Shown here: positions 45,389-61,815 of the stretch, piece after piece
How positions within the stretch are numbered: the first letter of the stretch is position 1
Layout: every line of letters begins with the position of its first letter
Source: Paludisphaera rhizosphaerae
GTDB taxonomy: Bacteria; Planctomycetota; Planctomycetia; Isosphaerales; Isosphaeraceae
DNA length: 64,000 nt
Reading direction: 5' to 3'
NCBI RefSeq assembly: GCF_011065895.1
Contig: NZ_JAALCR010000002.1
Location: 248,001-312,000, forward strand
The notes under the pieces: model-generated
Databases searched by the model: none
Seen by the model: only the letters and a program-made list of their open reading frames with translations
What the model was told of the DNA's origin: nothing
Made by a program: the position numbers and the translations under genes

Positions 45389-45425
45389 GCCGCTCTTCGC
45401 ATCCGCCTTGCTGAGAAACCACGCC

Positions 45426-45471
45426 ACGAGGCCGCGGCCGGGGAACCACCCCGCCGCGGCCTCGTTTGTTT
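45426..45471 (+). terminator. Intrinsic terminator after the DUF3467 gene
   Basis: A 13-bp perfect stem (ACGAGGCCGCGGC at 45426-45438 with GCCGCGGCCTCGT at 45453-45465) encloses a 14-base loop and is followed by TTGTTT. The remaining 260 bases up to the protease start hold nothing else I can support. Confidence 0.85.
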
Positions 45472-45731
45472 CCCCTCGCCGCGGCATTTCTCCTCCTCAC
45501 GTCGAATTTGTCGATAATTCGGCTTGCATCGTTCCTTTCGCTGATCGAGGTCGCCCTCTGCGGCCGATGCTGATGGTAAGAAAAGATCCGCGTGCGCCGG
45601 TTGCAGCCCGGGGTCGGGTCTTGCCGGATGTTTCGGCTCATCATCAAACGCCGGGTGCGCCGATACTGAGGACCGCCGGGTGTCTCGGCCTCGGTTCAGG
45701 ACGGACGAGTCCAGCGTTAGGAGATAATGGA

Positions 45732-48700
45732 ATGTCTCAGCCATCCCGACCGCGGGCGCAGAGCCCAGCGCAGCGGCGAAACCGCACCATCAAGCTTGAG
45801 GGAGCCACCCCGCTTGAAGCACGTCCCCTGATGGCTCCCGTCGTCCCAGTCTACCCGCTTGAAGCCACCTTCACTGCGGCGACGACCCCGACGAACTCGT
45901 TCCTGGGTACAGTGGTGGTCGACTCGAACACCACCGCGACCACCCTCAGCAGCCCAGCGCCGATCACCTCGGTGGCCGAGCTGACGCCGCTGTCGTCGTT
46001 CGGCGGCGACATGGTCAAGGTCGAGGCTGGGCCGGGCGGAGTCTTCGGCAACGGACTCTACGCGATCTCGCGAGGGGCCGGGGGCAACACGAACGCCGTC
46101 AACAGGCCGGGGGTCATCTACCGGGTCGACCCCGCCACGGGCAAGGCCAGCGTGTTCTTCGACCTGAACACGGTGATGAACCAGCTCGATCCCACCAACG
46201 CCCTGAACCGGGACGGCTCCAATCCTGCCGCCGCCTCGCTAGGCGGCGCCACGACCGGCGGGACCGACACGACGGGCTACGCCAACTGGTACGACATCAC
46301 CTTCGACCGGGAAGGCGTCATCGACGGCACGCCCTCCATGTTGGTCTCGGTGGCGGACCGGAACGACCCGGCGAAGAACGCGGTCTACCGGATCAGCGCC
46401 GACGGCACCTTCCTGGGCGCCTACGTGACCCTGACCGACGGCCAGGCGGCGACCAAGTTCAACATCAACCCGACGGCCATTGTCGTCCCCAGCGCGGAGA
46501 TGCAGAACACGATCCGAGGGCTGGTGGCCGGCAGCGGCATCAGCTCGACCGGCGGAACTCTGGCGGCTCTGTACTTCAACTCGAACGAGTACTCGTCAGG
46601 TCAGGTGATCTCGAACGCTTCCAGCCTCCCCAAGGGGGTGTCGGAGACCGGCCTGAGCGCCGGGACGATCGCGGGCATCACCCAGGCGAACATCGACTAC
46701 TTCTCGCCGCTCTACTCGATCTTCACCGACTTCGGCACCCCGTCCGGCGGCGGAATCGTCGCCACGCCCGGAGTCAGCGGCGTCCAGGGCTCGAACGGCG
46801 AACTGCTGATCGCCGGCCCGGCCAGCTACGATCCGACCACCGATACACTGGTCCCCGACTACACGTCGTTCCTCACGACCCCCTTCCGGCGGTTTGAGGA
46901 CATTGCATTCGACCAGTACAGCTACTTCGCGCAGGCGGTCCCCCTGACCGCGACGGCGGCCACGACCGGCGCGAGCTCGACGACGTATACGGTCTCCGGT
47001 ACGGCCACCTACGCCGGCAACCTGTTCGTCAGCGACCTGGCGACCGGATTGTACGTCACGGTGACCTCGGTGGCCGAGGGCGACATCCCCGCCGGCGTGT
47101 CCGTGAACGTGCCCGTCCAGGGCAGCGGCGTGATCGGCATCCAGAAGGCCGACCCGTCCCAGCCTTACAACGCCGTCACGAATCCCCTGGTGCCGATCGT
47201 TACGAACGGCAACACCACCGGCGGCTCCAACATCGGCGGCCGAATCGTCCGGATCACCCCGGATGGCCTCATGACGACGTTCGCCCAGGGGTTCGACACC
47301 TCGGGAGCGCAGGACTACACCAGCTTCCTCGATTCCGAGTTGAGCATCACGTTCTCTGCGGACGGCACCGTGCTGTACGCCTCGGACGGCGACGGCATCT
47401 GGCAGTTCAAGACGACCTCCAGCCTCGCCGGGTCGACCTCCGGCACGATCGTCGGCCTGAACGACCTGCGGACCTTGGGCGTTCCCTACGACGGCCAGGG
47501 GAGCGCCGTAGCGGTTATCGACACCGGCGTCGACTCCCTCTCGTCTCCGTTCCGCGGTCGCGTCGCGAACGGCACGAACGTCTATAACAATGGAACCGGC
47601 ACCCAGGACCTCGCCTCGGGGCCGCTCACGACGACCGGGAACAATAACAACAACAATGGAGGCAACACCGGAGGTAACACTGGCACCACCGGCGGTTCCA
47701 CCAACCTGGCTAACACGTTCGACGGTCACGGAACGCCCGTCGCGGGCGTGGTGGCGCAGTTCGTCCCGCAGTCGACGATCGATCCTGTCTCGATCTTCTC
47801 GCCGTGGTTCGGGTCGGTCAGCTTCACGCAGACGGGAAGTACCAACAACGGCGGCAACAATAACGGCGGCGGCAACAATAACAACAATAACAACACGACC
47901 CTCTCGGCGACGGCCAACGCACTGACCTCGACCAATGCGGTCTACCAGGGGCTGGCTTACGTCGCGTCGCACCCGTACGTGAACGACCCGGTGCGGTCGG
48001 GCCAGGTCTCGCGCGTCATCGCCTCGACCCTGGCGTTCGGTACGACCCAGACGTGGACCAGCGAGGCGCAGGCGTATCGCAACTATCCGCAAATCGTCAT
48101 CGCCTTGAAGCTGCAGCTCAAGAAGTTCCGCTCGCTGGGCATCGCCCCGATCGCGGCCGCCGGCCAGTTCGGCTCGCCTCTCGGCCTGACTTCGGGCGGC
48201 ACGACCGGTAATACCGGCGGCGGCAACACCGGCGGCACGACCACCTCGAATGGCACCGGATTGTTCCGCAGCAATGCGGACAGCGCAGACATCGGCGACA
48301 ACAACGGCATGTCGATGCCGGCGATCCTGAACGAGACGCTCTCGGTCACCGGCACCTATCCGTTCCCCTACACGACGGACGCGACGACCACCCCGTTGAA
48401 TACTCCGACGGGTGTGATTCCGTACAATCAAGGGCCGGTCCTGGTCTTCCAGAACTCCTTGACGATCGGCGGAGGGTCGACGGACAGCAACGTTACCTCC
48501 GGCATCAGCGCCGGGACGAATAACACCAACGTCGCCGCAAACGTCACCGCCTTTGCCAACTCCGACTTCAACATCTGGGCCGACCGGATCCCCGGCTCTG
48601 TCAACAGAGGTATCACGACGGACTTCGCCGCTCCGTCGATCGACGTCCCGACGTTCCGTCGTCGATTGGACACCACGACGATCTCGGGCACGACGACCAC

Positions 48701-50369
48701 GACCAACGACGATGCGAACCGCCTGACGTTCACTCAGGTCGGGACCTCGATGTCGACGGGCATCCTCACGGGCGCCTACTCCATGGTGTCCTCCGCCCTG
48801 AACTACTGGACGAACCTGAACAAGGCCCAGGGGCTCACGGCGGATGCCTACCTGACGACTCCGGTCGGCGTCAATTCGCTGAACTTCGGCGCCCACGGGA
48901 TCGGCGACCTCTCGGCCTACAACAATCCCGACGGGATCAACGGCATCCTCGCCTGGACGGCCGTGCCTGTCTACGACGTGAACGACGGCTCCAGCGTGGC
49001 AACCCCCGCGCTGCTGAGCACCACGGACAAGCAGAACAAGTTCGAGGGCGCCAACGTGGCCCCGGCCTACGCCCGGGTCTCGATCAGCAACGCCATTGCC
49101 GCGATCGAGGGGACGGAGGCTCTCAATTACCTGATCTCCAACAACTACCTGACGCTGATCGACGCCAACAACGACGGCCTGATCACCGCCCAGGAAGTTC
49201 AAAGCTTCACCGATACGGCCGCTACGAAGGGGCTGGCCGAGGCCGGCGCCATGGCCCGCCTGCTCGGTGGAACGGCGTCCTACGCCCAGCCAGATGTGGG
49301 CATCAACAACACGGCCTTCAACGAGAACCCGGACCAGGCCGGCGCCCTTCAGCGTCGCTTCAACTTCTTCGACTACGTCGCCAACGGTAAGCTCAACGGC
49401 GCCGTCAGCATCGACAGTCTGAAGATGCTCGCCGGCACGCTGCTGCCTTCGGCGGACGCCTACGTGATCGTCGACCGTCAGCGGGCCTCGGCCAACGGCT
49501 TCCTGGTCGATCCCCAGGCCCAGCGGAACACAACGGCCCTGCAGCACAAACTCCCGCAGTTCATGTGGGTGTCCAAGGCGCAGGTCGCCAAGTTCCGCGG
49601 CATGAACCCCAACCGGTTCAAGATCAATCGGAACGAAGCACCAGGCACTTACCTGCCGTACTACACCCTGTTCGACTCGGGTGGTACGACCTCGAACCGG
49701 GTCTCCACTCCCGTCGTCACGACCAAGACGGTCAACGGCGAGACGATCCGGGTGCTCAGCTACAAGCAAGGCGCCGTCATCTCGAACAACACGTCGAGCA
49801 ACTCGGGCACCACCACCTCGTCGACCGACACGTCGACGAGCACGAGCACGACGACGACCAACACGCCAACGACCGGCACGACCACGACCAGCACGACGCC
49901 GGCCACGTCGACCTCGACCGACAGCACGACGCCGACGACCACGACCACCTCATCCGACACGTCGACGAGCTCAAGCTCCTCGACGACGGACCAGAGCAAT
50001 CAGGTTGTGGCGGCCTTGCTGGACCTGGCGAGCAAGAACTCGTCGACCGCCACTTCGACGACTCTGGGAACCGCCACGCCGATGGCGGCCGTCCAGTCCG
50101 ACTCCCCGGCGACCACGGGCGTGGCCGCTTCGACCACCACCGCCGCGGCGACCTCAACGGCCGCCGTCTCGACCGAGGCCCCAACGACGCCGACCGTGAC
50201 GACCACGCCGGCCGCCGCGACGACCTCGGCAGACCTGACCACCCAGCAGCAGGCCGCCGCCCAGGCCGCGGCCGCCAAGGCCCTGGCCTACAAGAAGGCC
50301 AAGGCCGCTCAGAACAGCAAGAGCACCCTCTCGAAGCTCTGGGACGACATCAAGAGCCCCTTCTCTTGA
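45732..50369 (+). CDS. Giant subtilisin-like (S8) secreted protease
   Basis: From ATG 45732 (AGGAG site) the protein is 1,545 residues. The N-terminus has a LEPR-xLL-like export motif (PLEARPLMA). Residues about 90-580 form a large beta-rich domain with propeller-like NGLYAI and IYRVDPATG blocks. The catalytic triad is D597 (AVIDTGVD), H666 (FDGHGTPVAGVV) and S1006 (VGTSMSTG). The H-S gap is long because Asn/Gly-rich loops are inserted (runs near residues 636-655, 698-718 and 815-840). An EF-hand-like loop DANNDGLITAQE starts at D1144. A Thr/Ser-rich stretch follows (about 1352-1422), then an Ala-rich tail ending in a basic helix. The frame is open upstream but without SD. The enzyme is probably surface-bound; the target is unknown. 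Confidence 0.88.
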   Translation: MSQPSRPRAQSPAQRRNRTIKLEGATPLEARPLMAPVVPVYPLEATFTAATTPTNSFLGTVVVDSNTTATTLSSPAPITSVAELTPLSSFGGDMVKVEAGPGGVFGNGLYAISRGAGGNTNAVNRPGVIYRVDPATGKASVFFDLNTVMNQLDPTNALNRDGSNPAAASLGGATTGGTDTTGYANWYDITFDREGVIDGTPSMLVSVADRNDPAKNAVYRISADGTFLGAYVTLTDGQAATKFNINPTAIVVPSAEMQNTIRGLVAGSGISSTGGTLAALYFNSNEYSSGQVISNASSLPKGVSETGLSAGTIAGITQANIDYFSPLYSIFTDFGTPSGGGIVATPGVSGVQGSNGELLIAGPASYDPTTDTLVPDYTSFLTTPFRRFEDIAFDQYSYFAQAVPLTATAATTGASSTTYTVSGTATYAGNLFVSDLATGLYVTVTSVAEGDIPAGVSVNVPVQGSGVIGIQKADPSQPYNAVTNPLVPIVTNGNTTGGSNIGGRIVRITPDGLMTTFAQGFDTSGAQDYTSFLDSELSITFSADGTVLYASDGDGIWQFKTTSSLAGSTSGTIVGLNDLRTLGVPYDGQGSAVAVIDTGVDSLSSPFRGRVANGTNVYNNGTGTQDLASGPLTTTGNNNNNNGGNTGGNTGTTGGSTNLANTFDGHGTPVAGVVAQFVPQSTIDPVSIFSPWFGSVSFTQTGSTNNGGNNNGGGNNNNNNNTTLSATANALTSTNAVYQGLAYVASHPYVNDPVRSGQVSRVIASTLAFGTTQTWTSEAQAYRNYPQIVIALKLQLKKFRSLGIAPIAAAGQFGSPLGLTSGGTTGNTGGGNTGGTTTSNGTGLFRSNADSADIGDNNGMSMPAILNETLSVTGTYPFPYTTDATTTPLNTPTGVIPYNQGPVLVFQNSLTIGGGSTDSNVTSGISAGTNNTNVAANVTAFANSDFNIWADRIPGSVNRGITTDFAAPSIDVPTFRRRLDTTTISGTTTTTNDDANRLTFTQVGTSMSTGILTGAYSMVSSALNYWTNLNKAQGLTADAYLTTPVGVNSLNFGAHGIGDLSAYNNPDGINGILAWTAVPVYDVNDGSSVATPALLSTTDKQNKFEGANVAPAYARVSISNAIAAIEGTEALNYLISNNYLTLIDANNDGLITAQEVQSFTDTAATKGLAEAGAMARLLGGTASYAQPDVGINNTAFNENPDQAGALQRRFNFFDYVANGKLNGAVSIDSLKMLAGTLLPSADAYVIVDRQRASANGFLVDPQAQRNTTALQHKLPQFMWVSKAQVAKFRGMNPNRFKINRNEAPGTYLPYYTLFDSGGTTSNRVSTPVVTTKTVNGETIRVLSYKQGAVISNNTSSNSGTTTSSTDTSTSTSTTTTNTPTTGTTTTSTTPATSTSTDSTTPTTTTTSSDTSTSSSSSTTDQSNQVVAALLDLASKNSSTATSTTLGTATPMAAVQSDSPATTGVAASTTTAAATSTAAVSTEAPTTPTVTTTPAAATTSADLTTQQQAAAQAAAAKALAYKKAKAAQNSKSTLSKLWDDIKSPFS

Positions 50370-54811: not shown

Positions 54812-55303
54812 ATGGCGGATCAGAAACCAATCTTGCCGCTTCTCCAGCAGCGTGAGATCGAGGCCAGGATCGTCGGTCCGCTGATGCGGGCCTTCGCCGA
54901 CGCTTTCGGCCGCGAGCCGACCCTGGAGGTCCTCCGCGGGGTGATCGTCGACCTGGCCCGCCAGGGAGGGGCCGACCTCGCCCAATCGCTCGGAGAGAGC
55001 TCGCTGGAGGCGTTCGCGACGACCCTCGGACGCTGGTGCGAGAACGACGCGCTGGAGATCGACGTGCTCGAGCAGTCGGACGAGCGACTCTCGTTCAACG
55101 TCGTCCGCTGCCGCTACGCCGAGATGTATCGTCGGCTGGGGCTCGAGGATCTGGGGGCGTCGCTCTCCTGCGTCCGTGATTTCGCCCTCGCCGAGGGATT
55201 CAGTCCTGAGATTCAACTCGAACGCACCCAGACGATCATGCAGGGCGCTCCATACTGCGACTTTCGTTTCCGCCGCGAGAAGCGCACTTCCGACCCGGCA
55301 TGA
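54812..55303 (+). CDS. L-2-amino-thiazoline-4-carboxylic acid hydrolase family protein
   Basis: The 163-residue protein has helical N-terminal blocks and the C-terminal signature GAPYCDFRFRREKR, typical of the ATC-hydrolase family. The enzyme in Pseudomonas opens a thiazoline ring to cysteine precursors, but most members have unknown substrates. A conserved region RYAEMYRRLGLEDLGASLSCVRDF provides the second cysteine. ATG 54812 follows CGGAG. It is upstream of the peroxiredoxin-kinase gene with an extended -10 between them, so the two are probably transcribed separately. A thiol-sulfur connection between them is speculative. Confidence 0.8.
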   Translation: MADQKPILPLLQQREIEARIVGPLMRAFADAFGREPTLEVLRGVIVDLARQGGADLAQSLGESSLEAFATTLGRWCENDALEIDVLEQSDERLSFNVVRCRYAEMYRRLGLEDLGASLSCVRDFALAEGFSPEIQLERTQTIMQGAPYCDFRFRREKRTSDPA

Positions 55304-55336
55304 GGCCTTCAAGACGATCGCGCGGCTTGTCGGTCG

Positions 55337-55345
55337 TGCTATAAT
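55337..55345 (+). promoter_or_regulatory. Extended -10 promoter element before the peroxiredoxin-kinase gene
   Basis: TGCTATAAT is a consensus extended -10 (TGnTATAAT) with no convincing -35. It is about 75 bases before the ATG at 55420, which suggests that the fusion gene has its own promoter. Confidence 0.65.
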
Positions 55346-55419
55346 GTGAACCGAAAACTCGCCGCGCCTCAGTTCCGGCGCTCGCCGGACGCCGCGGGAT
55401 TCCCGGTGATTGGATCCCG

Positions 55420-56808
55420 ATGCCCAGCACCTTCGTCGGAAACCCCGCCCCTCCCTTCGACCTTCCGTGCACGAGGCGTCCCGACCCGTCGCGGAATCGG
55501 GCGCGTCTGGTCGATTACAAGGGGCGATGGCTCGCGCTGGTCTTCTATCCACGTGACTTTTCGATGGTCTGTCCGACCGAGTTGATCGGACTCAGCCAGC
55601 GCGTCGAGGAATTCCGCGATCTCGGCTGCGATCTGCTCGGCGTCAGTTGCGATCCCGTCGAACTGCACGATCGCTGGATTGCGACGCCCAAGTCGCAGGG
55701 GGGGCTCGGAGGCTTGAACTTCCCCCTCGCCAGCGACGTCGACGGCGAGATCTCCACGGCGTACGGCGTTTTCGATCCCCGTCGGAACCTGGCCCTCCGA
55801 GGGACGTTCATCGTCGATCCCGAGGGGATCATCCAGTACGAGGTGATCCACAGCCTCAGCATCGGACGACGGAGTCAGGAGGTCCTGCGAGTCCTCACCG
55901 CGCTCCAGTCCGGCGGCCTCTGCCGCGAGGACTGGATGACGGACGGGTCGAACATCGACCCCTACCAGATCCTCCAGCCGGGCAACATCTTTTCCCACTA
56001 CCACCTGGACTCGGAGATCGGAGCGGGGACGTTCGCGCGGGTTTACCTCGCACGCGACCTCCAACTCGACCGTCCCGTCGCGCTGAAGGTCTTCAATCGC
56101 GACTGTCCCGTCACGCCCAGCACGGCGCTGGCGGAGGCGCGATCGGTCGCCGCGCTGAACCACCCCAACATCTGCACGATCTATGCGGTCGACGACGCGG
56201 CGGGGTTGCCGGTGATCGCGATGGAGTACATCCAGGGACGAACGCTCTCATCTCGGCTGCGAATGGAGCGACCGCCGATCGACGACCTGCTGCATCTGGC
56301 CCGTCAGATTGCCGGAGGCGTCGCCGCGGCGCACGATGCGGGGATCATTCACGGCGACCTGAAGCCGGACAACATCATGGTGGCCGACGACGGGCTGGTG
56401 AAGGTCCTGGACTTCGGCCTGGCTCGTCGCGTCGACAGGCTCGGGCCGGTCCAGACGGATGAGACCAGCGAATTCGGCATCGCGGAGAACGGCGACGGCT
56501 TGTTCGGCACGCCGCGCTACCTGGCTCCCGAGCAGACCCTGGGCGATCCGGCGACGTTCGCCAGCGACGTCTTCTCCCTGGGGATCGTCTTCTACGAGAT
56601 GGCCACGGGCATACCGGCCTTCACCGAGGGGAACGTCCTCCAGGTGATGCATCAGATCCGCAACATCGACGCCGACGCCATGGCCGTCGCCGCCGGCGAG
56701 CCCTTCACTCCCCTGCTCCGCTCGATGCTCGTCCCCGATCCCACCCGGCGCGACGTCCCGATGCGCCGAATCGTCGCCGAGATCGACGCCGTCTGCGAGT
56801 CGGTTTGA
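55420..56808 (+). CDS. Peroxiredoxin-Ser/Thr kinase fusion
   Basis: The 462-residue protein joins two normally separate proteins. Residues 1-175 are a Prx1/AhpC-type peroxiredoxin with the peroxidatic C51 in FSMVCPTELI, the Trp/Arg site blocks (GTFIVDPEGIIQYEVIHSLSIGR) and a resolving cysteine C168 in ALQSGGLCREDW. About 25 residues later a kinase starts: GAGTFARV P-loop (third glycine replaced by alanine), K223, E239, HGDLKPDN catalytic loop with D313 (HGD instead of HRD), DFG at 331-333 and APE at 369-371. The kinase is nearly complete and may be active. An extended -10 element precedes it. A peroxide-controlled kinase is the obvious hypothesis. The next gene is a HAD phosphatase. Confidence 0.93.
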   Translation: MPSTFVGNPAPPFDLPCTRRPDPSRNRARLVDYKGRWLALVFYPRDFSMVCPTELIGLSQRVEEFRDLGCDLLGVSCDPVELHDRWIATPKSQGGLGGLNFPLASDVDGEISTAYGVFDPRRNLALRGTFIVDPEGIIQYEVIHSLSIGRRSQEVLRVLTALQSGGLCREDWMTDGSNIDPYQILQPGNIFSHYHLDSEIGAGTFARVYLARDLQLDRPVALKVFNRDCPVTPSTALAEARSVAALNHPNICTIYAVDDAAGLPVIAMEYIQGRTLSSRLRMERPPIDDLLHLARQIAGGVAAAHDAGIIHGDLKPDNIMVADDGLVKVLDFGLARRVDRLGPVQTDETSEFGIAENGDGLFGTPRYLAPEQTLGDPATFASDVFSLGIVFYEMATGIPAFTEGNVLQVMHQIRNIDADAMAVAAGEPFTPLLRSMLVPDPTRRDVPMRRIVAEIDAVCESV

Positions 56809-56855
56809 CTCGCCGCAAGTCCCACTGTTTCGTCACTCCCACCCCGGAGCCCTCA

Positions 56856-57536
56856 GTGCCCCTCGCCATTTTCGACCACGACGGCGTTCTCGTCGACACG
56901 CTCAAGCTGCATCAGGACGCCTGGGTCGCCATGGGCCGAGAGTCCGGCCTGCCGATGACGCCGGAATTCATCCTCGAAACCTTCGGCATGACCAACGCGA
57001 TGATCCTCCGGAAGGTCCGGGGCGAATCGCTCTCCGACGAGGAAGTTCTCGCGTACTCCGACCACAAGGAACAGCTCTACCGCGATCTGGCCCGAGGCAC
57101 GATCGTGCTAATGCCGGGCGTTCGACCGTTTCTCGACGCCCTCACCGAGGCCGGCGTGGAGATGGCGATCGGCTCCAGCGGCGTCCGGAAGAACCTGGAG
57201 CTGACCGTCGAGGAGTGCGGGCTCCACGGTCGATTCAAGGCGATCGTTGCCGGCGAGGACGTCACCCGAGGCAAGCCCGATCCTCAGGTCTTCCTCCTGG
57301 CCGCCTCGCGTTCGGGGGCGAAGCCCGAGGAGACCGTCGTCTTCGAGGACGCCCCCGTCGGGATCCGAGCGGCGAAGGCGGCGGGGATGCTGGCTGTCGG
57401 AGTCACTTCCAGCCATGACGCCGACGCCCTGCAAGCGGCTGGCGCCGACCTGATCGTCGCCGACCTGTCGCAATGCGATGTCGCGGATCTGCTCGCCCGG
57501 CTCAGTCCGGCCGGTAGGTGGGATACTCCCCGCTGA
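56856..57536 (+). CDS. HAD-superfamily phosphatase, beta-phosphoglucomutase-like
   Basis: The 226-residue protein has nucleophile D7 and acid D9 in AIFDHDGVLVDT, motif II SSG, motif III K in RGKPDPQVF and motif IV FEDAPVG. A helical cap sits between motifs I and II, which suggests a subfamily IA phosphatase or mutase acting on sugar phosphates. A GTG start at 56856 with GGAG six bases before gives the family N-terminus; the frame also opens with TTG at 56805, overlapping the kinase stop. It runs 35 bases into the end of the converging pnp gene. Confidence 0.85.
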   Translation: MPLAIFDHDGVLVDTLKLHQDAWVAMGRESGLPMTPEFILETFGMTNAMILRKVRGESLSDEEVLAYSDHKEQLYRDLARGTIVLMPGVRPFLDALTEAGVEMAIGSSGVRKNLELTVEECGLHGRFKAIVAGEDVTRGKPDPQVFLLAASRSGAKPEETVVFEDAPVGIRAAKAAGMLAVGVTSSHDADALQAAGADLIVADLSQCDVADLLARLSPAGRWDTPR

Positions 57537-58404
57537 GGCCCTCATTCCCCGGCGTGACTCCCGCGAGCCGGAGGACGACCCGACGAATCAGCTTGCCGAT
57601 CATCGGCGTGGCCTTCTCGCCGGCCTCCAAGACGTCTTCATGGCGGATCGGCGTGGGGAGAACGCCGGCCGCTGCGTTCGTCACCAGCGCGAGGCCCAGA
57701 ACTTCCATACCCCCGTGCCGGGCGACGATCGCCTCGGGGACCGTTGACATTCCCACCACGTCCGCCCCCAGGGCGCGGAGCATCCGGATCTCCGCCGGGG
57801 TCTCATAGCTCGGGCCGGGGAGGCAGGCATAGACGGCCGAGACCAGGTGCACTCCCAGTCGCTTCGCCTCCTCCTTGGCCATGTTCCGCAATCGCTTGGA
57901 ATAGACCTCGGTCATGTCCGGGAACCGTTCACCGAGCCTGGGGTCGGCGGGACCTCGGAGCGGGTTCGCGCCGATCAGGTTGAGATGGTCCGACAGGCAG
58001 ACGATGTTGCCCGGCCGTAAATCGGCCCGGACGCCTCCCGTCGCGGCCGTCAGGATGACCGTCTTCACGCCCAGCCGCTGGAGCACGCGCATCGGAAACG
58101 TGACGGCGCGGAGGTCGTGGCCCTCGTAGAAGTGGAACCTTCCCTGCAACAGGAGAGCCTCGGCGCCGTCGACCGAGCCGAAGACCACGTTGCCGGCGTG
58201 TCCCTGTACGGTCGTAACGGGGAAATGTGGGATCTGAGCGTACGGAATCACCTTTCGGTCGCCGAAACGCTCCACGAGCCCGTTCAATCCAGAGCCCAGT
58301 ACGACGGCCACCTGGGGCGACCTGTCGCCGGCCGCCCTGCGAATGACCTCGGCCGCTTCATCGGCGGAGGAGAGCAAATCGTGGGGATGGCTGGACTGGC
58401 TCAT
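57502..58404 (-). CDS. Purine nucleoside phosphorylase
   Basis: PNP splits purine nucleosides with phosphate to base and ribose-1-phosphate. The 300-residue protein from ATG 58402-58404 has VVLGSGLNGLV, QGRFHFYEGHD, LTAATGGVRADL, YACLPGPSYETPAEIRML and GMSTVPEAIVARHGG, all typical of the trimeric PNP class (active-site H, Y, E, M and N region). GGGAG precedes the start. Its start overlaps the nupC stop as ATGA, which points to coupling, and its 3' end overlaps the converging HAD gene by 35 bases. It is the last gene of the nucleoside salvage operon. Confidence 0.95.
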   Translation of the reverse strand: MSQSSHPHDLLSSADEAAEVIRRAAGDRSPQVAVVLGSGLNGLVERFGDRKVIPYAQIPHFPVTTVQGHAGNVVFGSVDGAEALLLQGRFHFYEGHDLRAVTFPMRVLQRLGVKTVILTAATGGVRADLRPGNIVCLSDHLNLIGANPLRGPADPRLGERFPDMTEVYSKRLRNMAKEEAKRLGVHLVSAVYACLPGPSYETPAEIRMLRALGADVVGMSTVPEAIVARHGGMEVLGLALVTNAAAGVLPTPIRHEDVLEAGEKATPMIGKLIRRVVLRLAGVTPGNEGLSGEYPTYRPD

Positions 58405-59786
58405 AGAAGGACTCCCGCAATGCACGCCGAAAGGAAATTCGCCAGAGTGCCGGCCAGGAGCGCCCGGCCTCCAAGCCGCGCCAGATCCTTGCGACGCTCC
58501 GGAACGAGGGCTCCGATCCCGCCGATCTGGATCCCGATCGAGCTGAGGTTGGCGAAGCCGCAGAGGGCGAAAGAGGCGATGACGGCCGATCGCGGATCCA
58601 GGCTCGCTCGGATCCCGTCGAGCTTCTGAAACGCGATCAACTCGTTGAGCACGGTGCGCGTCCCCAGCAGACCACCCACAGCGCGGCAGTCGTCCCAGGC
58701 GACGCCCAGCATGTAGGCGACAGGCGCCATGATCCAGCCTAGTAGATCCTCCAGCGAGGTATTCAGCCGGCCCAGCCCGAGGTTCACCAGCGCGACCAGG
58801 CCCACGAAGGCGATCAGCACGGCGGCGATGTTGAGCGACAGGCTCAGACCGTCGCGAGTCCCCCGAGCGGCGGCGTCGAGGATGTTGGAGTCCTCGCGAT
58901 CGTCATGGTGTCGGATGCCGCCGAGCGTTTCAGGCGTCTGAGTTTCGGGCACGAGCAGTTTCGAGAGCAGCACGGCGCCGGGGGCGGTCATGACGACGGC
59001 GGTCAGGACGTGCCGGGGCTCCACGTGGTAGGCGAAGTAGGCCGCCATCACGCCCCCCGACACGTGGGCCATTCCGGCCGTCATGACGGTCATCAACTCG
59101 GAGTTCGTCAGTCGAGCAAGGTAGGGCCGGATCGTCAGCGGGGCCTCCGTCTGGCCGAGGAACAACGAGGCCGCCACGTCGAGCGACTCCGCCCCGCTGA
59201 TCCCCATCAGCCAGGCCATCGCCACGGCGAAGGAGCGAACGACCCACTGCATGATCCCCAGGTGATAAAGCACCGCGAAGAGCGCCGCGACGAAGATCAC
59301 CGTGGGGAGCACGCGGAAGGCGAAGACGAAGCCCGCGGGGCCGTCCGCCTTCACCAGCGCCTCGCCGAACACGAACCGAGCCCCCTCCAGGGCGCATTCG
59401 AGGACGGACTCCACAAGCTTGCCGGCCTCCTGGAGCAATCGAACACCGGCCGGGGCGCGGAGGACCAGGATCGCGAAGATCCACTGCAGCGCCACTCCCC
59501 AGAAGAGGACTCGGCGCGAGATCGCCCGGCGGTTCTCGGAGAAGATCACGGCACCGACCAGGATGAGAGCCATCCCCAGCAGTCCGCGGAGCCGGTTCGC
59601 CCATTCGCCGAGACTGAGATCGCTCCTGACGTCCGTTTTGGGGGTCGCCTTGGAGACGTCGGCTGCTGGAGGATCGGCCGCGGACGGAACAGGGGCGGGA
59701 ATCGTACGTCCTTCCTCGATGCTCGCTCCAACGCGCGGCGACATCGCCGCGGCTGCGAGGATCATGACGGCGATCAGCATTCGCAT
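58401..59786 (-). CDS. Concentrative nucleoside transporter, NupC type
   Basis: The 461-residue membrane protein of the CNT family has an unusual N-terminal signal-like helix plus a Pro/Ala-rich segment (residues 1-55) before about nine or ten transmembrane helices. Family motifs present are GxTEAP in FLGQTEAPLTIRPYL, MTAGMAHVSGGVMAAYF and FALCGFANLSSIGIQIGGIGAL. It imports nucleosides with sodium or protons. It lies between deoA and pnp, so imported nucleosides would be split directly. The stop overlaps the pnp start. Confidence 0.93.
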   Translation of the reverse strand: MRMLIAVMILAAAAMSPRVGASIEEGRTIPAPVPSAADPPAADVSKATPKTDVRSDLSLGEWANRLRGLLGMALILVGAVIFSENRRAISRRVLFWGVALQWIFAILVLRAPAGVRLLQEAGKLVESVLECALEGARFVFGEALVKADGPAGFVFAFRVLPTVIFVAALFAVLYHLGIMQWVVRSFAVAMAWLMGISGAESLDVAASLFLGQTEAPLTIRPYLARLTNSELMTVMTAGMAHVSGGVMAAYFAYHVEPRHVLTAVVMTAPGAVLLSKLLVPETQTPETLGGIRHHDDREDSNILDAAARGTRDGLSLSLNIAAVLIAFVGLVALVNLGLGRLNTSLEDLLGWIMAPVAYMLGVAWDDCRAVGGLLGTRTVLNELIAFQKLDGIRASLDPRSAVIASFALCGFANLSSIGIQIGGIGALVPERRKDLARLGGRALLAGTLANFLSACIAGVLL

Positions 59787-59829
59787 CGACCAGTTCCTCG
59801 CGAACGACCTTGAAACACTCGGCGAAACG

Positions 59830-61149
59830 TCAATCGACCCCAGCGACCAATCGGTCGACGATCGTCGTCGGCACGTCGACGCGGTCCGCCGAGAAGTGAT
59901 AGGCGTCGGCGATCATCTCCGAGGCCCGTTCCAACTCCGCCTCGTCGTTGACGAGGATCGTGCAGAGCGATTCTCCGAGGTCGACGAGGTCGCCGACCTT
60001 CTTGTGCAGAATCACCCCCACGGCCGGATCGATCCTGGAATCGACCTTCGCCCGTCCTGCTCCGAGCAGCATGGTGGCGACGCCGATGGGACGGGAATCG
60101 AGCTTCGAGACCCGGCCGACCCGATCGGACTTCAATTCGATCGTCCGCTTCGGTTGCGGCAGCAGTCCGGGATCATCCACGATGCGGGGATCGCCCCCCT
60201 GCGCGGCGATCAGCCGACGAAGCCGCTCAAGCGCCGATCCGTCCTCGATCGTCCGCTCGCAGGCCCCGCGAGCCTCCTCGATGCTTTTCGCCAGGCCGGC
60301 GAGGAGGACCATCTCCGCGGCCAACTCGATCGACAGGCCCATGAGGTCGTCAGGCCCCTGACCGCGCAGGCATTCGAGGCTCTCAACGACTTCGACCGCA
60401 TTGCCGACGGCCCGGCCGAGCGGCTGGTCCATTCGGGTGATGAGAGCGACGATCTTCTTCCCCATCTTATGGCCGACGTCGCACATCGTCTCGGCCAGGA
60501 GCATCGAGTCTTCCAGGTCCGGCAGGAACGCGCCGGAGCCCGTCTTCACATCGAGGACCAGGCCGTCGATCCCTTCCGCCAGCTTCTTCGACATGATCGA
60601 CGCGGAGATGAGCGGGATCGACTCGACGGTCGACGTGGCGTCGCGCAGGGCGTAGAGGAACTTGTCGGCCGGGGCGATCTCCTTCGTCTGGCCGATCAGG
60701 ACGAGGCCGGTTTCCGCGAGGATCTCCCGGTAGCGGTCGAGCGTCACGTCGACGCAAAAGCCGGGGATCGATTCGAGCTTGTCGAGCGTGCCGCCCGTGT
60801 GGCCGAGGCCACGGCCGGAGACCATCGGCACCATCACGCCGGCCGCGGCCGCGATGGGCGCGATGATGAGCGAGGTCTTGTCCCCCACGCCTCCGGTGCT
60901 GTGCTTGTCGATCTTCGGACCGGGAATCGCCGAGAGGTCGACGATGTCGCCCGACCGCATCATCGCGTCCGTCAGGGCGGCGGTCTCGGAACGATTCATC
61001 CCCTTGAGGACGATCGCCATCAGCAGAGCGGACCACTGGTAATCGGCCACGGCGCCGTTGGCGATCCCCTCGACCATCCAGTTGATCTCGGCCGTCGAAA
61101 GCGCTTCACCCTCGCGTTTCTTCCGGATCACGTCCACGGCGCGAACCAT
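59830..61149 (-). CDS. deoA: Thymidine/pyrimidine-nucleoside phosphorylase
   Basis: The 439-residue enzyme phosphorolyses pyrimidine nucleosides to base and (deoxy)ribose-1-phosphate. Signatures are KIDKHSTGGVGDKTSL (phosphate site, about residues 81-96), SGRGLGHTGGTLDKLES and the typical LALELAxxM-like helix. Length agrees with E. coli DeoA (440 residues). Whether it prefers thymidine or also uridine cannot be decided, so pdp is an alternative symbol. It is 30 bases after upp and 43 bases before nupC. Confidence 0.94.
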   Translation of the reverse strand: MVRAVDVIRKKREGEALSTAEINWMVEGIANGAVADYQWSALLMAIVLKGMNRSETAALTDAMMRSGDIVDLSAIPGPKIDKHSTGGVGDKTSLIIAPIAAAAGVMVPMVSGRGLGHTGGTLDKLESIPGFCVDVTLDRYREILAETGLVLIGQTKEIAPADKFLYALRDATSTVESIPLISASIMSKKLAEGIDGLVLDVKTGSGAFLPDLEDSMLLAETMCDVGHKMGKKIVALITRMDQPLGRAVGNAVEVVESLECLRGQGPDDLMGLSIELAAEMVLLAGLAKSIEEARGACERTIEDGSALERLRRLIAAQGGDPRIVDDPGLLPQPKRTIELKSDRVGRVSKLDSRPIGVATMLLGAGRAKVDSRIDPAVGVILHKKVGDLVDLGESLCTILVNDEAELERASEMIADAYHFSADRVDVPTTIVDRLVAGVD

Positions 61150-61179
61150 GTCGAACTCCTCGATGCGTTCCGACCGTCG

Positions 61180-61815
61180 TCAATGGTCCGGGCTGGTGGC
61201 GAACTGGCGGTCGCCGGCGTCGCCTAGACCCGGGTAAATGAAGCCGATCTCCGTCAGCCGCTCGTCCACCGCGCCGACGTGGATGGGGACGTCGGGCATC
61301 GCCTCGCGCATCCGGGCGATCCCTTCGGGCGCGGCGATGAGGGAGAGGAGCTTCAGTCGCGGCACCCCGGCGGACTTGAGGATCTCGCACGTCCGCACGG
61401 CCGAACCGCCGGTGGCGAGCATCGGATCCACGACCAGACCGATCGTGACGCGCGGCTGTTTGGGGAACTTGTTGTAATACTCAGTCGGCTTGAGCGTCGC
61501 CTCGTCGCGGAAGAGGCCGATGTGCCAGACCTCGGCTTCCGGGAGCAGCTCAATCAGGCCGTCCGCCATCCCCAGCCCGGCGCGGAGGACGGGGATGATC
61601 CCGACCACGTCGGCCAGCGCCTGACAGGGAGAGGGGCCGAGCGGGGTCTGGATGGTGACGTCGCGCGTCGGCAGATCGGCGGTCGCCTCCTGTCCTAGCA
61701 GAAGAGCGAGGCTTCTCACGAGCGACCGGAACTCGGGCGGTTTGGTGCGGGAGTCCCGCAGTGCCGCGAGCTTCTGGAGAACGATCGGATGCGACGACGC
61801 GAATACCGACGCCAC
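61180..61815 (-). CDS. upp: Uracil phosphoribosyltransferase
   Basis: Upp makes UMP from uracil and PRPP in pyrimidine salvage. The 211-residue protein has the PRPP loop VDPMLATGGSA, IPVLRAGLGMADGL, and a C-terminal AAPEGIARM with GFIYPGLGDAGDR for uracil binding. Start is GTG 61813-61815 with AGGAGG upstream. It is the first gene of the operon with deoA, nupC and pnp. Confidence 0.96.
   Translation of the reverse strand: MASVFASSHPIVLQKLAALRDSRTKPPEFRSLVRSLALLLGQEATADLPTRDVTIQTPLGPSPCQALADVVGIIPVLRAGLGMADGLIELLPEAEVWHIGLFRDEATLKPTEYYNKFPKQPRVTIGLVVDPMLATGGSAVRTCEILKSAGVPRLKLLSLIAAPEGIARMREAMPDVPIHVGAVDERLTEIGFIYPGLGDAGDRQFATSPDH

Follow-up and report, generated by a model that had tools for sequence, protein, structure and literature searches.

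We found that the gene at positions 55420-56808 (+) of the window, which is the whole 64,000-nucleotide stretch of Paludisphaera rhizosphaerae DNA that was analysed, encodes an AhpC/Prx1-type 2-Cys peroxiredoxin (Prx) with a Hanks-type Ser/Thr kinase following almost immediately in the same chain. The product is probably a soluble peroxide-sensing Ser/Thr kinase, which would be gated when oxidation of the peroxidatic cysteine, C51, unfolds the kinase-bearing tail around the resolving cysteine, C168. A peroxide-controlled kinase had been proposed in the original prediction for this DNA and is the best-supported reading, as the redox residues and their spacing are kept; redox control of the kinase itself is inferred.

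The open reading frame of the fusion gene runs from ATG to TGA with no internal stops and encodes 462 amino acids. Pfam identified AhpC-TSA at residues 6-140 (E = 7.8e-35) and Pkinase at residues 194-444 (E = 7.5e-42), and a sequence search of solved structures matched human Prx2 over residues 5-181 (E = 6.1e-42) and PknB-type kinases over residues 186-413. The source genome (8.05 Mb, 110 contigs) contains 85 places which match the fusion protein, of which only one, the fusion itself, matches over both domains; the rest comprise many kinases and a few Prx. We looked for a frameshift or an assembly error which might have joined two genes and found none: the reading frame is intact and the identical junction is present in 45 translated genomes and in three more named assemblies, one of these being truncated, so that an error of this kind is practically ruled out. 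As orthologs spanning both domains (down to 38-44% identity) occur in other genomes, the fusion is no artefact.

A search for the domain architecture in planctomycete genomes recovered the same order, AhpC/Prx followed by Pkinase, in 46 distinct genomes (counted by hand from listings). Both-domain matches were found in 6/6 genomes of the genus, 17/45 of the family, 42/397 drawn from the class and 12/392 drawn from the phylum, and in 3/95, 1/12, 2/9 and 16/170 genomes of narrower groups; it should be noted that these genome sets overlap and that the source genome is counted in them. The 46 genomes consist of the 42 from the class, three outside the class (G092, G109 and G169) and G775, whose match covers only residues 2-278 and which was left out of the aligned set. 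The distribution is patchy, with the majority of the planctomycete genomes searched lacking the gene. A scan of named assemblies gave at least seven junction-spanning matches, all with planctomycete titles, four of which were proteins already in the set; L089, L090, L094 and L095 were dropped as identical to L017, L061, L057 and L044, respectively. The aligned set therefore contains 48 distinct fusions, 45 from the searched genomes and three from named assemblies. One of these, L091, is truncated and was left out of the kinase tree, the counts of fusions versus other kinases and the pairwise identities. One fusion of 827 amino acids (L050:1483-3963) has a second kinase domain; by eye, the first domain carries HGD and the second HRD.

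Trees built with FastTree point to a single fusion event as the origin of the Prx-kinase architecture. The 48 fusions were split from 16 stand-alone Prx in the tree of Prx domains (support 0.993), and 47 fusions were split from 35 other planctomycete kinases in the tree of kinase domains (support 0.998), with comparison sets which are small and include near-identical pairs (L097/L098 among the Prx and L201/L202 among the kinases).

The Prx domain covers residues 1-181 (55420-55962, +), including the Pfam match at residues 6-140 and a tail which was aligned to human Prx2 up to residue 181. It had been described from the letters alone as a complete 2-Cys-type Prx with C51 as the peroxidatic cysteine and C168 as the probable resolving cysteine, and both residues do align to the human Prx2 cysteines. 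C168 (codon 55921-55923, +) is retained in 48/48 fusions, and C51 (codon TGT, 55570-55572, +) is Cys in 46 fusions and TGA in the remaining two, L059 and L060. In the window protein the resolving Cys sits in a GG(L)C..W context on the C-terminal side of the Prx, as in AhpC/Prx1-type Prx. The PxxxT/SxxC motif is completed by P44 (47/48, with A in one) and S48 (47/48, with T in one), the active-site R127 is conserved in all 48 fusions, and the distance from C51 to C168 is 118 residues inclusive in every one of them. Peroxide chemistry in this part of the protein is strongly implied.

The fusion resembles typical 2-Cys Prx of the AhpC/Prx1 type in its PxxxSxxC centre, its Arg and its C-terminal resolving Cys. 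Stand-alone AhpC/Prx1 enzymes made up 14 of the 16 Prx compared and have 38-50% identity to the Prx of the window; the other two (25-27% identity) look like other Prx subfamilies. No NCBIfam Prx model was at its cut-off for the fusion among the best 25 of 31 matches. Unlike the stand-alone AhpC/Prx1 enzymes, the fusion has a C-terminal tail which continues into a kinase.

The two fusion genes with TGA, L059 in genome G684 and L060 in genome G660, carry this codon in frame and exactly at the C51 position (FSLV-TGA-PTEL; 1636-1638 in both L059 and L060). Fusions were found in 3/95 genomes of the family to which G684 and G660 belong, two of the three with TGA, and all three genomes (the third being G550) have a tRNA-Sec at 72.9-74.8 bits, with anticodon tca according to ARAGORN, together with SelB above the cut-off. 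As the TGA falls at the C51 codon in genomes with both tRNA-Sec and SelB, the L059 and L060 products are most probably selenoproteins, and what is under selection seems to be the reactivity of this one atom and not just a scaffold. Both genomes are drafts (G660 is 79% complete in about 220 contigs and G684 is 86% complete in about 600 contigs). Internal stops are present in only three of the 48 fusion genes, two of the three at the C51 codon. The L088 gene (L088:1104-2591) has a TAG in its kinase part (residue 230) where near relatives are open, and we have treated this as a broken copy or a sequence error, not as recoding.

The tRNA-Sec model found matches in all 14 control genomes, above the cut-off in five of them, so that weak matches mean little. 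SelB was above the cut-off in 2/14 control genomes and 21/45 fusion genomes; in 19 of the latter 21 the fusion has Cys, and the machinery for selenocysteine (Sec) therefore does not dictate Sec at this position. The window gene has the Cys codon TGT at 55570 and no UGA there, SelB above the cut-off is absent from the source genome, and the sole above-cut-off match to the tRNA-Sec model in that genome is a tRNA-Ser according to ARAGORN. Genome G641 has neither tRNA-Sec nor SelB above the cut-off. As a possible bSECIS element, a hairpin whose loop begins 18 nt past the UGA has eight consecutive pairs in L060 and five in L059 versus three or fewer in the 46 Cys genes, at a position which was chosen post hoc; by total pairs, L059 has six of eight and is equalled by several Cys genes. 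The lowest-energy RNA fold includes this hairpin in L060, and L059 folds differently. Sec-containing peroxiredoxins (PMC1794560, PMC13188914) and planctomycete selenoproteins (PMC4807772) are already known. L059 and L060 are like the Sec peroxiredoxin PrxU in having TGA at the peroxidatic position, unlike the window protein with its Cys; the PrxU model gave 118.2 bits for the window protein, 111.9 for L060 and 118.0 for L059, with a cut-off of 270.

The kinase domain comprises residues 194-444 (55999-56751, +). It had been said to start soon after C168, and the Pfam match does begin 26 residues past this cysteine, which leaves little space beyond a Prx tail. The catalytic residues are kept: in the window protein these are K223, E239, H311-G312-D313, D331-F332-G333 and E371, with K223 and E239 found in 48/48 fusions and H311, G312, D313, K315, D331 and E371 in 47/47 (L091 ends before them). 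The predicted HGD in place of HRD was confirmed at residues 311-313 (56350-56358, +) and in all 47 fusions which reach this point, whereas the variable position of the catalytic loop is R in 34 and C in one of 35 other planctomycete kinases; HGD is a hallmark of the fusion kinases in this comparison. The replacement makes them non-RD kinases, the RD motif being usual and not obligatory. The third P-loop Gly, which had been reported as missing, is indeed A206 in the window protein, but its loss is not a family trait, since position 206 is G in 24, A in 20 and S in 4 of the 48 fusions.

A candidate phosphosite in the activation loop, T349 (56464-56466, +), is T in 45/48 fusions with a gap in the other three, and in a second alignment T in 46/47 fusions versus 3/35 other kinases; as the loop (D331-E371) ranges from 18 to 78 residues among the fusions excluding L091, the alignment at T349 is uncertain. 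Non-RD kinases are often independent of activation-loop phosphorylation, and the non-RD character of the fusion kinase makes it less plausible that T349 serves for activation.

Between the Prx tail and the kinase lies a short link (residues 182-193; 55963-55998, +), the length of which hardly changes. From C168 to the first P-loop Gly (G201) there are 34 residues inclusive in 44/48 fusions and 35 in the remaining four. Mean pairwise identity among the 47 untruncated fusions was 0.545 for the Prx (residues 6-164), 0.463 for the tail and link (165-193) and 0.464 for the kinase (194-444), indicating that the link varies in sequence and barely in length. Among the 14 stand-alone Prx of AhpC/Prx1 type, the chain ends 11-13 residues past the resolving Cys in nine, and the other five, which are planctomycete proteins, have tails of 27-29 residues past it.

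AlphaFold modelled both domains in a single chain (mean pLDDT 82.1), with pLDDT below 50 at residues 167-178, around C168, and at residues 335-359; with a pTM of 0.57, the placement of the Prx and the kinase relative to each other is not confidently predicted. Among the best 50 Foldseek matches, PknB and 2-Cys Prx were matched separately, with PknB as the top structure match. A hydropathy-type scan of 19-residue means reached 1.6 in 6/48 fusions, always in the kinase (starts at 416-431), and at this threshold no transmembrane-like stretch was found outside the kinase fold in the 48 fusions. We have assumed a soluble protein on this basis.

We also examined the DNA around the fusion gene. The extended -10 of its own which had been ascribed to the gene is present as TGCTATAAT at 55337-55345 (+), where it was picked up in an upstream scan as a possible promoter element, and no full sigma-70 -35/-10 pair was found alongside it in 55250-57650. 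It recurs as TGNTATAAT in 5/6 members of the genus and in 0/41 other fusion upstream regions (one of only 40 nt). The neighbours are those named in the original prediction, with Pfam giving ATC_hydrolase upstream and HAD downstream. The open reading frame of the HAD-family phosphatase (56805-57536, +) lies directly downstream on the same strand. A HAD gene adjoins the fusion in 9/11 Isosphaeraceae regions and in 0/9 other regions, and is a possible co-transcribed partner in the former. The ATC_hydrolase gene adjoins the fusion in 4/11 Isosphaeraceae regions and 0/9 others.

Across clades, no recurring neighbour gene was seen by eye in these 20 regions and in a listing of 12 regions, and the genomic context consequently names no substrate for the kinase. 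The fusion open reading frame appears in 11 of the 12 listed regions (in L184 only as the part after the TGA) and was missed in L186 owing to the TGA. Genomes G065 and G013, of one genus, have two fusion neighbours in common. By eye, a nucleoside-salvage-like run lies at 57502-61815 (-), with PNP-like, nucleoside transporter-like, thymidine phosphorylase-like and uracil PRTase-like genes, and this run stays beside the fusion in G001-G005 and G028. A very long open reading frame at 45408-50369 shows, also by eye, subtilase-like motifs and asparagine-rich stretches.

We infer a coupling of Prx redox state to kinase activity, which could operate as follows. By homology, the Prx part would form dimers and probably rings, gathering several kinases. 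Peroxide would convert C51 to sulfenic acid; there would then be local unfolding of the helix that bears C51 and of the C168 tail, after which a C51-C168' disulfide would link two subunits. In 2-Cys Prx the resolving Cys is supplied by the adjacent monomer (PMC5024103), and formation of the disulfide requires the helix of the peroxidatic Cys to unfold partially (PMC5024103, PMC8300647). The C51-C168' disulfide should therefore join one chain to another within a dimer or ring; of the disulfide proposed originally, the two cysteines are kept, and the bond is expected between chains and not within one. Because the N-lobe of the kinase is tethered to the C168 tail at near-constant length, unfolding of the tail would shift the N-lobe mounted on it. 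Oxidation would free the kinase to phosphorylate in trans, with T349 as a possible site, a direction which we modestly favour over its reverse, and thioredoxin would return the switch to the reduced state. The joint retention of P44, S48, C51, R127, C168 and the kinase catalytic residues argues for such a gated kinase, as does Ser at the Thr/Ser position in 47/48 fusions. In yeast and bacterial Prx, Ser at this position goes with stabler decamers, and it is Thr, not Ser, which destabilises the oxidised decamer (PMC5024103, PMC8300647). Points on the other side are the pTM of 0.57, the absence of a neighbour recurring across clades in the regions examined, and the lack of the gene in most of the planctomycetes searched.

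The same tether also holds the kinase beside the Prx, and control could run in reverse, the kinase phosphorylating its own or adjacent Prx subunits, and so tuning the peroxidase, or phosphorylating proteins bound to the Prx ring. Both active sites are kept and the absence of a recurring partner gene is consistent with this, but reverse control leaves the near-constant length between C168 and the kinase unexplained and we consider it unlikely. The near-constant length of the linker could, for its part, be due to folding rather than signalling. A further cysteine, C252 (codon 56173-56175, +), is enriched in the kinases of the fusions (42/47 versus 2/35 other kinases), and raises the idea of a redox relay in which oxidised C51 hands its oxidation on to C252 and activity is altered by way of the kinase core. 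This we judge to be quite unlikely: C252 is absent from 5/47 fusions, its position in the kinase fold is presumably buried, and C168 would compete for C51. The comparison which favours a relay is with engineered roGFP2-Prx probes, in which a roGFP-Prx fusion works as a peroxide probe (PMC6778086), but the probes quoted are without the resolving Cys.

It is also conceivable that the Prx is merely an oligomerising hub, its chemistry being irrelevant to signalling. The structures matched by the kinase part (best 50 Foldseek matches) include CaMKII, a kinase mounted on a ring-shaped hub, and the assembly of Prx1-type proteins into decamers is in keeping with a hub of this kind (PMC5024103). A pure hub would, however, have no need of R127 and C168, which are kept in 48/48 fusions, or of C51, which is Cys in 46 and probably Sec in two, and this makes a scaffold very improbable.

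The peroxide-gated kinase which we favour can be compared with several known systems. The Hanks-type kinases PknB and StkP share with the fusion the catalytic K, E, HxD, N, DFG and APE/SPE; the fusion differs from them in having HGD instead of HRD, an N-terminal peroxidase and no transmembrane-like stretch outside the kinase, and Pfam found no PASTA repeats in the window protein. PknG (rubredoxin-kinase-TPR) likewise has a redox module N-terminal to a Ser/Thr kinase, the rubredoxin being a metal site, but unlike the fusion it has no peroxidase module, and neither rubredoxin nor TPR was found in the window protein (Pfam, E <= 0.001). The kinase activity of PknG may be under regulation by redox state (PMC4401782). 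A Mycobacterium tuberculosis kinase with a DsbA-like domain (gi 2131007) also combines a Ser/Thr kinase with a thioredoxin-family domain; its oxidoreductase is described as periplasmic (PMC1262709) and is not a peroxiredoxin. The engineered roGFP2-Tsa2 and roGFP2-Tpx1 resemble the fusion in that a Prx is fused to an output domain which reports H2O2, and are unlike it in being man-made and having the resolving Cys removed (PMC6778086), where the fusion is natural, keeps its resolving Cys and has a kinase as output.

No Prx-kinase fusion is described in the literature which we searched, in agreement with the earlier remark that no characterised protein is known to have this order; the supplements of PMC11032199, which deals with accessory domains of planctomycete kinases, and the selenoprotein table S9 of PMC4807772 may list such proteins. 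Nor was a kinase fusion that begins with a Sec-containing Prx found in the literature searched. Prx, Hanks kinases, PknG-type kinases with a redox module and the DsbA-like kinase were all known already, and what would be new, if proved, is the mechanism. That the fusions constitute a new class of one-protein H2O2-gated kinases, in which oxidation of a Prx ring drives the kinases mounted on it and Sec raises the reactivity of the sensor in some lineages, is a proposal to which we give roughly an even chance.

Planctomycetes encode Ser/Thr kinases by the dozens, and many bacterial Ser/Thr kinases are without a known input; for the fusion, the make-up of the protein itself tells what this input is likely to be. 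Peroxide signalling from Prx to kinase in eukaryotes uses separate proteins. In the fusion the Prx and the kinase are tethered, conserved and of a size suited to assays, and the natural Cys and Sec variants allow comparison. If the proposal is true, an H2O2-gated ring kinase would be the natural one-chain counterpart both of the engineered Prx-fusion probes and of the eukaryotic Prx-to-kinase relays.
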